56,419 bases of DNA from a virus. The translations under genes were made by a program, and so were the position numbers. Numbering within the stretch: position 1 is the first letter of the stretch; every line of letters starts with the position of its first letter. Shown piece by piece: positions 33,694 to 35,540 of the stretch. Under the pieces are notes generated by a model, which was not told the origin of the DNA, did no database searches, and saw only the letters and a program-made list of their open reading frames with translations. Location: IMG/VR virus record IMGVR_UViG_3300021354_000009, positions 1 to 56,419 of that record; one strand, written 5' to 3'.

Positions 33694-33974
33694 TTTTTAC
33701 CTTTCAGTTGTATCCAATCACATCTTTGCAAAATAAACTTTAACGACGGTTGAGGCTTACCCTTCCTATCAACGATTTTTGGGCAAGTTCCATGCTTCAT
33801 ATCAAATAACTTGCACTCAAAGCAAAGACGCCTATCGTCTTGGGGATCTGCGTCACGGTTAAACAACTTGTCCGCCAGTTCCCAAGCTTGTTCTTGAGCC
33901 ATCCCATGAGCCATGAACGCTTGTGTTCGCCTGTCGTGTTTGGCAGTTGCTATTTTGATCTCGTCTTCAGTCAT
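33690..33974 (-). CDS. Small zinc-binding protein candidate, 94 residues
   Basis: The N-terminal half is helical (HDRRTQAFMAHGMAQEQAWE). The C-terminal half has LCFECKLFDMKHGTCPKI and LQRCDWIQLKGKK, giving Cys residues placed for metal binding. Similar proteins occur in phages of Burkholderiales as hypothetical genes. ATGA overlaps join it to neighbours on both sides. Confidence 0.68.
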   Translation of the reverse strand: MTEDEIKIATAKHDRRTQAFMAHGMAQEQAWELADKLFNRDADPQDDRRLCFECKLFDMKHGTCPKIVDRKGKPQPSLKFILQRCDWIQLKGKK

Positions 33975-34144
33975 GCCCAGTTCGCAATCATGTGATCCAT
34001 AAATTCTTCAAACATGTCGCCACTCTCAACGATGCGCTCAACCTTTTGTTTAGTCCAAGCATCGCAACGCTCAGAGATAAATGCGTAGTACTCAGCATCA
34101 AAGTCACCACACTCAAATTGGCATTTAAACATTGACTCATTCAT
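33971..34144 (-). CDS. Small early protein, 57 residues
   Basis: ATG 34144 has AAAGGAG upstream and its own early promoter (34181-34197). The product starts MNESMFKCQFECGDFDAEYY and ends in a helix with DMFEEFMDHMIANWA. It is acidic. It is the first gene of the cluster carrying the resolvase. No family recognised. Confidence 0.66.
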   Translation of the reverse strand: MNESMFKCQFECGDFDAEYYAFISERCDAWTKQKVERIVESGDMFEEFMDHMIANWA

Positions 34145-34159
34145 CTTTTTCTCCTTTAC

Positions 34160-34173
34160 CCACAACATCGTGG
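34160..34173 (-). promoter_or_regulatory. Stem-loop near the predicted transcript start
   Basis: CCAC and GTGG separated by 6 bases begin at about the predicted transcript start from the promoter at 34181. It is the third minus-strand early promoter with this arrangement. Confidence 0.5.
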
Positions 34174-34180
34174 TGATCAC

Positions 34181-34197
34181 ACTATAACAGGAAATTA
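34181..34197 (-). promoter_or_regulatory. Early promoter (17-bp box, extended -10)
   Basis: The minus strand reads TAATTTCCTGTTATAGT, nearly the same as the box at 28503. It drives the gene starting at 34144. A run of eight T residues on the minus strand lies just upstream (34217-34210). Confidence 0.72.
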
Positions 34198-34199
34198 CA

Positions 34200-34495
34200 G
34201 TTACAAGTTAAAAAAAAGGCACCCACCCGTATTTCTTTTTGTCTTGCTTGGACTCCCTCAATACCTTTCACCCAAAGACCCCCCTACCCCCAGAGAGAGT
34301 AGAAAGGAGAAGGTGCTTCACCCCTGTAAACAGGATCATCATGCGAACGTAAGTTCTGCCCCCGACTTGATGATTCGACCAGTCGCACGGGTTGTTCGGG
34401 AACTGCCCCCTAGACTTGCGTCATACCGTGTACGCTTTCCTTCCGCGCCACCACGATTGAGGTGCTTGCTAACGTGCGGAGTACGGGTAAAGCAA
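34200..34495. other. Gene-free interval, G-rich on the minus strand
   Basis: About 300 bases between the ncRNA candidate and the early promoter contain no frame I can support. The minus strand is G-rich: G-tracts at 34255-34291 could form a G-quadruplex. CTGCCCCC occurs at 34356-34363 and 34403-34410. CCTG/CAGG and GGTG/CACC mini-hairpins are present. A plus-strand frame of 94 codons crosses it but lacks a ribosome binding site. It could be an origin of replication or a packaging or regulatory region. Confidence 0.5.
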
Positions 34496-34499
34496 AAAG

Positions 34500-34648
34500 C
34501 AAAAAACCCATTGGTGAACGAGCTTTAGGCTTGGTTGCCGCATAGAGAGGTGCCAAACCACGTTCTCTAGCTTTGACGAAGCCCGCTCACCAATGGGTTT
34601 GCGGATGTCGTTTGTTTGGAAACTACAACGGTTTACCAGACCGTTGAT
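34500..34648 (-). ncRNA. Candidate structured ncRNA 1
   Basis: A predicted RNA of about 150 nt runs from near 34648 to the U-tract at 34506-34501. It begins with a 7-bp hairpin (CAACGGT/ACCGTTG, 34626-34646). A 22-nt closing stem pairs 34579-34600 with 34504-34525; it is continuous only on the minus strand, where two positions are G-U wobbles that would be A-C mismatches on the plus strand. The enclosed part holds a TAGAGA/TCTCTA hairpin. The closing stem is followed by six U. A promoter lies just upstream (34655-34685) and no coding frame is supported. It could instead be only an elaborate terminator of the primase gene. Confidence 0.6.
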
Positions 34649-34654
34649 ATGCTG

Positions 34655-34685
34655 ATTATAGCTACGTTGTAGCAACTCGTGTCAA
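34655..34685 (-). promoter_or_regulatory. Candidate promoter for ncRNA 1
   Basis: On the minus strand TTGACA (34685-34680) and TATAAT (34660-34655) are separated by 19 bases, both perfect consensus hexamers although the spacing is long. It overlaps the last codons and stop of the primase-like gene. A GCTAC/GTAGC inverted repeat lies in the spacer. Confidence 0.55.
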
Positions 34686-35540
34686 TACCTCTTTTCGTAA
34701 ATCCATAACTTTTTTTACAACTGCCATCAAACCACGCTTATCGTGTAGATCATTGACGTCATATCCGACCTCATCTGCCATCGTCCAAGGCAACCCAGTC
34801 TCAATAGCAGACTTCTCACCAGTCTTGCTCACATCGTTGTCTGCAAAGATAAAACAATCGCCTTTGACTTGACTAGCAACTTGAACCATGTTGATGGCAG
34901 AAAAGCACACCATCACAGAACTGTTTAAACCGACGCTACGCAAGGCTTTATGCAAGGATAGACCTGTGGAGTAACCCTCGACCAACCACACCTCTGGAGC
35001 CTCTCTAGACCCCATCAAGAGCACCGCGTTCTTAGCACGCATACCGTGGAGCATCTTCTTGTTGTACTTGCGATTTGGTTCGTCCCAATAGATCTCTTGG
35101 TAACCTTGTAACTTACCCGTCACTACGTTACGCATAGGCACCAACAACTTACCGTCCAAAACATAGCCTTGCATGTCTTTAAAGCCTTTGATCTCCAAGT
35201 ATGGGTGGCTTTCCATCTTGGCAGAACGCAACGTGTTGGTAGCTTTCTCAGACGCCATGTCGTATGAACGGTTCTTGTCAGCATTTAACACTTGGCGCTT
35301 TGCCATCCAATCACGCTTCTCTTGTTCAGACCAAGGCTTGGCATTTGGGTCTTCGTACCAGATAACTCTGGCTTCTTCTGCCCAGTTCATCACCCACCCA
35401 CGTTTGCCATCGTAGAAGAACGCACCGTTGGTGGACTTAGGCTTATCAAGCGTCCCACACCGACGAATACGCTCAGATGGGTATAGGTTGTTTAAATCAA
35501 TCTCTACGCCATGGGCGCGTGCAAAGTTAATAAAGCTCAT
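34662..35540 (-). CDS. TOPRIM primase-like protein
   Basis: The product is 292 residues. Residues about 183-255 form a TOPRIM domain: WLVEGYSTGLSLHKAL with Glu188 and FIFADNDVSKTGEKSA with Asp234 and Asp236. The N-terminal part (NGAFFYDGKRGWVMNW) resembles phage primase and primase-helicase N-termini but lacks the usual zinc-binding cysteines. No helicase domain is fused; a separate helicase gene lies upstream with an ATGA overlap. It probably makes primers or assists replication restart. Confidence 0.8.
   Translation of the reverse strand: MSFINFARAHGVEIDLNNLYPSERIRRCGTLDKPKSTNGAFFYDGKRGWVMNWAEEARVIWYEDPNAKPWSEQEKRDWMAKRQVLNADKNRSYDMASEKATNTLRSAKMESHPYLEIKGFKDMQGYVLDGKLLVPMRNVVTGKLQGYQEIYWDEPNRKYNKKMLHGMRAKNAVLLMGSREAPEVWLVEGYSTGLSLHKALRSVGLNSSVMVCFSAINMVQVASQVKGDCFIFADNDVSKTGEKSAIETGLPWTMADEVGYDVNDLHDKRGLMAVVKKVMDLRKEVLTRVATT

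Follow-up and report, generated by a model that had tools for sequence, protein, structure and literature searches.

A putative structural RNA family of phages with a variable loop–loop contact, as predicted from comparison of homologues

We propose that a segment on the minus strand of the window, which is here the whole stretch of DNA that was analysed, an IMG/VR virus record of 56,419 bases, is a gene (termed RNA-1) for a non-coding structural phage RNA that acts in trans, rather than for an antisense regulator, a reading to which we assign a probability of about 0.6. As judged by the comparison of homologues, RNA-1 is a real RNA family and not a product of chance, and there is strong support for a small structured RNA under a (predicted) promoter of its own. 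Moreover, the covariation among the homologues is strong enough to establish as base pairing a variable loop–loop contact, termed PK2, between the hairpin loops L2 and L5. The family is well supported, and it is found neither in Rfam nor among the catalogued phages and the cellular genomes that were searched. While structured phage RNAs with kissing loops are already known, RNA-1 appears unusual for the hypervariable and self-complementary word that its loops carry.

Based on our proposal, a sigma70-type promoter would give a transcript that starts from the foot of hairpin P1 and that can end at the U-tract after stem P3. The RNA would form a compact body, in which the 22-bp P3 leads up to an invariant three-way junction that gives rise to the branches P4–P5 and P6, and the hairpins P1 and P2 would dock on P6 and P5, respectively, by loop–loop kissing. 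A partner, be it a protein or a ribonucleoprotein, of the host or of the phage, would probably recognise the invariant junction, while the L2–L5 kiss would be a Watson–Crick lock, the sequence of which is free to change while both sides match.

The genes encoded in the window include those for a terminase large subunit, a portal, a helicase, a ParB-like protein, a primase and a RuvC-like protein, and a search of the window for tRNA and tmRNA genes found none. The primase ORF (34662–35540, minus strand) and the next minus-strand ORF (33971–34180) are separated by about 480 non-coding bases. On the minus strand, starting within the last part of the primase gene, there are in order TTGACA, 19 nt, TATAAT, a 5′ hairpin, a small hairpin, a 22-bp stem with a branched core and UUUGCUUUUU. 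The initial annotation had placed a candidate RNA at 34500–34685 on the minus strand, with a TTGACA/TATAAT promoter at the end of the primase gene followed by a 5′ hairpin, a 22-nt closing stem enclosing a branched region, and a U-tract. The coordinates and the strand are correct, the promoter is present as a 12/12 match with its −35 box inside the primase ORF, and all of the structural elements can be located on the minus strand; overlooked were the P2 hairpin (34623–34610), both loop–loop contacts and the adjacent RNA-2. The features of the locus are as follows.

34680–34685, minus strand: −35 box TTGACA, in the 3′-terminal part of the primase ORF; with the −10 box a 12/12 match
34655–34660, minus strand: −10 box TATAAT; the spacer is 19 nt (suboptimal) and the start is expected at about 34648
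34500–34648, minus strand: RNA-1, about 149 nt, with the 5′ end placed from the promoter and the 3′ end from the U-tract
34626–34646, minus strand: P1, the 5′ hairpin CAACGGU/ACCGUUG with loop L1 CUGGUAA; both-side changes occur among the homologues for 6/6 of the pairs modelled
34635–34638, minus strand: L1 segment UGGU, which pairs with the ACCA in the loop of P6 (contact PK1); conserved
34610–34623, minus strand: P2, the small hairpin GUUU/AAAC with loop L2; versions in homologues are GUU/AAC, GCU/AGC and GCA/UGC
34614–34619, minus strand: L2 word CCAAAC, which forms the contact PK2 with GUUUGG of L5, from a per-sequence loop-pair search in 67 homologues
34579–34600, minus strand: 5′ arm of the closing stem P3, AAACCCAUUGGUGAGCGGGCUU; 96.7–100% of the cells are paired across the three P3 helices, and the top is invariant
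34572–34578, minus strand: junction J3/4 CGUCAAA, unpaired core; 6/7 columns are invariant in 56 sequences and the remaining one is C or U, an invariance that comes partly from sequence selection because J3/4 belonged to the 19-nt search motif
34540–34571, minus strand: P4 and the apical hairpin P5 (GUG/CAC) bearing L5; both-side changes in 4/7 pairs of P4 and 2/3 of P5
34553–34558, minus strand: L5 loop GUUUGG, partner of L2, as given by the PK2 pairing in homologues
34528–34539, minus strand: P6 GGC-AACCAA-GCC, the loop of which contacts L1; the stem is invariant and hence gives no covariation test, and the loop partner covaries in 3 sequences
34494–34525, minus strand: 3′ arm of P3 and the U-tract, a predicted 3′ end resembling an intrinsic terminator; GGGUUUUUUGCUUU or close variants occur in nearly all homologues
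34210–34485, minus strand: RNA-2, the structured neighbour of RNA-1 with a terminator-like U8 at its 3′ end, from RNAalifold with 11 relatives

Via the primase, 34 viral loci were found, and by inspection nearly all of them have an RNA of the RNA-1 kind downstream. A 19-nt core motif matched 84 viral contigs in IMG/VR, where all the viral matches long enough to be judged carry the complete RNA-1, its second half included, and a second motif gave 7 further loci, bringing the family total to about 90 phage contigs; IMG/VR is thus nearly exhausted for RNA-1 of class A. The 6 matches of the core motif in 84,980 cellular species genomes come without the flanks or the second half and are attributed to chance. 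No match to RNA-1 was obtained by blastn against 50,697 catalogued phage records or in Rfam at the gathering threshold and at E up to 5, and a literature search, incomplete in coverage, did not find a description of the family. The label "freshwater" for these phages is our own reading of the sample types of the contigs and of the lake-type relatives of the RNA. With covariance model R1, the training set of which included the window's own RNA-1, the match at 34500–34657 (159.4 bits) is the sole strong one in the window record, and across the records the copy number is one. The weak second matches (about 26 bits) arise from reading each site on its other strand, the stem being self-complementary. 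A coding reading was also rejected, with every frame closed in most homologues and the most open frame open in 20/56.

Among 56 aligned homologues, both-side changes occur in 26 of the 54 pairs of the RNA-1 structure and 96.6% of the pair cells are standard pairs, it being noted that PK1 and PK2 were derived from the same sequences, by which the percentage paired is favoured while the both-side changes are independent of it. When the structure is slid by 1–3 columns the pairing drops to 26–48%, and the covariation score is 0.333 as compared with 0.125 for shuffles and 0.045–0.075 for the slid structures. The nested part of the structure is recovered by RNAalifold unaided. The 22-nt arms of P3 occupy 34600–34579 and 34525–34504 on the minus strand, and RNA-1 of the window folds with a minimum free energy of −63.8 kcal/mol (z = −6.0), with 0/200 shuffles being equally stable; the plus strand of the region likewise folds (z −4.6), because the P3 stem is self-complementary. 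The direction of RNA-1 is minus because two P3 pairs (columns 84/159 and 87/152) are G–U there, in 56/56 homologues, and A–C on the other strand, bearing out the strand argument that had been made initially from two G–U-only stem positions. As regards the check by covariance in related phages, which the initial annotation had recommended, RNA-1 is conserved with covarying helices in about 90 viral contigs and in many gene contexts. Stem-breaking changes in relatives, named beforehand as a refutation, were looked for, and the pairing is kept, leaving the structure standing. Of the two loop–loop contacts, PK1 is the weaker supported, changing jointly in three sequences only: UGGU/ACCA becomes UGGC/GCCA in L045, L064 and L078, i.e., one pair that is U–A in 53 sequences and C–G in 3.

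It is noted that the promoter is a property of the family as well as of the window. In 64/68 distinct homologues, P1 is preceded at a fixed distance by a pair of boxes that resembles TTGACA/TATAAT (at least 9/12), as compared with 6.4% of shuffles, and the −10 box begins 21–23 nt upstream of the TGG of L1 in 63 of the 64 homologues with a promoter match. The spacers among the homologues cluster at 16 and 19, and the promoter of the window was missed by a scan with 16–18-nt spacers because its spacer is 19 nt. With their own promoter (64/68) and a conserved U-tract, the relatives carry in their sequences what is expected of a free-standing transcript. The gene that precedes RNA-1 is a primase, a terminase, a RuvC-like or an unidentified one, depending on the lineage, and the downstream genes differ too. 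One copy per record together with changing neighbour genes argues for action in trans, and RNA-1 probably acts in this way. Shortly upstream of the RNA-1 promoter, tRNA genes are seen in several relatives (L034:5877–5953, L047:8106–8182, L094:2914–2990 and L119:8315–8469). In L015, L027 and L033, more conserved non-coding stretches are present upstream of RNA-1, e.g., around CCAAGCCCGTGTGATTCGGGACAAAG and CAGTCCCCAGCCGTGTTGGT, which suggests strings of several non-coding RNAs between genes.

How far the transcript extends bears directly on the proposal, and against the structural-RNA reading it is noted that only a short U-tract (UUUGCUUU) comes after the last pair of P3 and that RNA-2 adjoins without a visible promoter, so that a longer RNA with two domains could make up much of the product. 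In that case RNA-1 would be the 5′ domain of a single RNA of about 440 nt comprising RNA-1 and RNA-2, with the U-tract as a linker or a processing site, which is consistent with RNA-2 lying 8–25 nt past the U-tract in nearly every RNA-1 of classes A, B and C and with a terminator-like U-run after RNA-2, before the next gene, in several relatives and in the window. However, the classes of RNA-1 and RNA-2 are freely shuffled against one another, L078, L092 and L098 carry RNA-1 without a recognisable RNA-2, and the stem followed by its U-tract is built like an intrinsic terminator; we regard the single RNA as a distinct possibility that falls short of even odds. Thus, of the free-standing RNA of about 150 nt that was claimed initially, the conserved promoter and the terminator-like end stand, while the separateness is called into question by the closeness of RNA-2, and the product may be a separate RNA of about 150 nt, the 5′ part of an RNA of about 440 nt, or both. 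It is very improbable, by contrast, that RNA-1 serves solely as an elaborate terminator for transcription of the primase operon, or as a cis-acting leader of the next gene. It does end in a stem with a U-tract and does follow the primase in the window, but it has its own promoter in nearly all homologues and neighbour genes that differ on both sides by lineage, its two loop contacts and conserved core are unnecessary for termination, and RNA-2 with its terminator-like end intervenes before the next gene. An ordinary small RNA that base-pairs with host or phage mRNAs would share with RNA-1 the size, the promoter and the U-tract that are typical of Hfq-type small RNAs. Nevertheless, the conserved bases of RNA-1 lie in the junctions and contact loops, leaving no free seed, the variable loops pair internally, and antisense matches to the remainder of the window reach at most 12 nt, the same as for shuffles, a comparison covering phage sequence only; this reading is thus considered improbable, and the initial idea of predicting targets on host mRNAs gains no support.

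We turn to the variable kiss. With the loop pair searched sequence by sequence, at least 6 contiguous PK2 pairs are present in 65/67 distinct RNAs, made up of 39 distinct words and containing 7 G–U among 405 pairs. The two exceptions are L050, which can pair with a bulge, and L098, where the contact is broken. The alignment score for PK2, 86.6%, is too low because MAFFT shifts L2 by 1–3 nt in some rows, which the per-sequence search corrects. Even with a cruder loop assignment, an RNA's own L2 and L5 give at least 6 Watson–Crick pairs in 45/67, versus 30/4,914 of the mixed pairings. With a word that varies widely and yet is almost always self-complementary, RNA-1 gives the impression of a structural RNA that carries its own lock or recognition tag. 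Among the class A RNAs, L2/L5 is clearly broken in L098 alone, which counts against our reading but might be explained by recombination or by chimerism of the assembly.

The rate at which the word changes is informative as well. RNAs that are 97–100% identical elsewhere have a mean PK2-word identity of 0.42–0.51, versus 0.36–0.40 for distant pairs. For the distant pairs, the divergence is explained by saturation under a constraint of pairing only, because P4 and the leader before P1 vary as much as the PK2 word does. Between close relatives, the flanks are 96% identical over 953 bp for L040 vs L116 and 95.8% identical over 991 bp for L077/L041 vs L116, and in these comparisons 2/6 PK2 base pairs are replaced on both sides with few other substitutions in RNA-1, while the flank rate predicts about 0.5 changes in the 12 bases of PK2. 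This excess points to either selection for change or the recombinational exchange of a block. Faster-than-neutral change of the kiss in close relatives, as suggested here, is not predicted by a mere internal lock.

Consequently RNA-1 poses the question of whether a natural 150-nt phage RNA has kissing loops for folding itself or for recognising its copies. We infer that the closing of the kiss within one molecule is somewhat the more probable and that between copies somewhat the less. Should the variable kiss link one RNA-1 molecule to another, the RNA would form dimers, rings or larger assemblies, and the hypervariable word would make the assembly of each phage self-only. The word being strictly Watson–Crick and differing between near-identical relatives is consistent with this, and analogous precedents are provided by the interlocking loops of pRNA (PMC5340915) and the intermolecular contact of ROOL (PMC12286853). 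However, recombination in a nearly invariant RNA could swap the P2–P5 block and so mimic fast change, and by a rough estimate intramolecular docking seems sterically possible too, and we put the joining of copies forward tentatively. More doubtful still is the reading of RNA-1 as a self-recognising barcode, by which copies from the same phage would assemble with each other and exclude the near-identical RNA that a co-infecting relative brings in. Were it true, it would mean a phage-specific RNA complex or exclusion between phages, and RNA-1 with RNA-2 would be a modular non-coding cassette with parts swapped between phages.

Returning to the structural RNA that we favour, its likeness to known systems is partial. 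The phi29-type pRNA (RF00044), with a size of 120–174 nt, is like RNA-1 phage-encoded and is built around a three-way junction, and its hairpin loops differ from phage to phage but stay complementary, as L2 and L5 of RNA-1 do. The phi29-type pRNAs share about 12% of their sequence, with the structure kept and the interlocking loops differing (PMC5340915). Unlike pRNA, RNA-1 has two loop pairs rather than one and has two hairpins outside the closing stem, and it gives no match to the RF00044 covariance model at the gathering threshold and at E up to 5. Moreover, the phage of the window encodes, unlike a phi29-type phage, a terminase large subunit; the presence of this gene and of a portal gene argues against a pRNA-like ring on the portal that would serve packaging with a phi29-type ATPase. 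GOLLD and ROOL are, like RNA-1, phage RNAs with kissing loops, with a role not established and often near tRNAs, and a covarying contact of ROOL that was first taken as tertiary proved by cryo-EM to be intermolecular (PMC12286853). Lengths beyond 800 nt are common for GOLLD, and the ROOL that was studied has 659 nt (PMC12286853), as compared with about 150 nt for RNA-1, which falls below the length of >500 nt expected of these RNAs and has no match to their Rfam models. Betaproteobacteria-1 (RF02932) adjoins RNA-1 as RNA-2 in L001 and L021 and is not itself RNA-1; its covariance model has no match in the window, the RNA-2 of the window included. 6S RNA and the Hfq-dependent small RNAs are of a size class like that of RNA-1 and have a long closing stem or a U-tract. 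RNA-1 differs from them in having no Rfam match and in its kissing architecture and conserved junction, where those RNAs have a free seed or mimic an open promoter.

From the arrangement of the loci, RNA-1 is read as the head of a two-RNA cassette. RNA-2 starts 8–25 nt after the U-tract of RNA-1 in nearly every locus of class A, B or C. For the window-type RNA-2, RNAalifold with 11 sequences gives 61 pairs, 17 of them covarying, and the single-sequence folding has z = +0.5. The slot of RNA-2 holds at least 6 unrelated sequence classes that are swapped between phages (those of the window, L001, L012, L019, L036, L047 and L118), with RNA-2 of L001 and L021 being RF02932 and the other classes checked against Rfam giving no match. 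A neighbouring slot with many unrelated structured RNAs suggests a swappable non-coding cassette in these phages. In L016, L041, L043, L073 and L119, a long insert, closed off by a stem such as GTGTGATTGATGATGG...CCATCATCAATCACA, stands in place of one RNA-2 hairpin; the inserts in some loci resemble a tRNA with an enlarged D-loop, and ARAGORN calls none.

The slot of RNA-1 itself is filled in relatives by RNAs of other classes, among them 26 of class C and 6 of class B, which likewise have a promoter and a 5′ hairpin and are closed by a stem that resembles a terminator. In all of them (26/26 and 6/6) the 5′ loop L1 pairs with a 3′ segment inside the stem by at least 7 Watson–Crick pairs. In the class C records that were searched, no class A RNA was found. 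Classes A and C have a shared logic, and a shared origin is possible; common descent was not accepted from the scores, as model R1 scores class C at 14–20 bits with E of 0.025–0.5.

Finally, we note two further observations. In L022, L026/L029 and L015, elements like RNA-1 but different in sequence come after a primase homologue, and in these too the loop of the 5′ hairpin seems complementary to an inner segment (e.g., GGCGG/CCGCC in L022). In the window at 34150–34210 on the minus strand, a promoter-like TTGTAA...TATAGT is followed by an inverted repeat, CCACGATGTTGTGG, upstream of the ribosome-binding site of the next gene, and a similar repeat, perhaps an operator, also occurs in L001, L002, L003 and L007.
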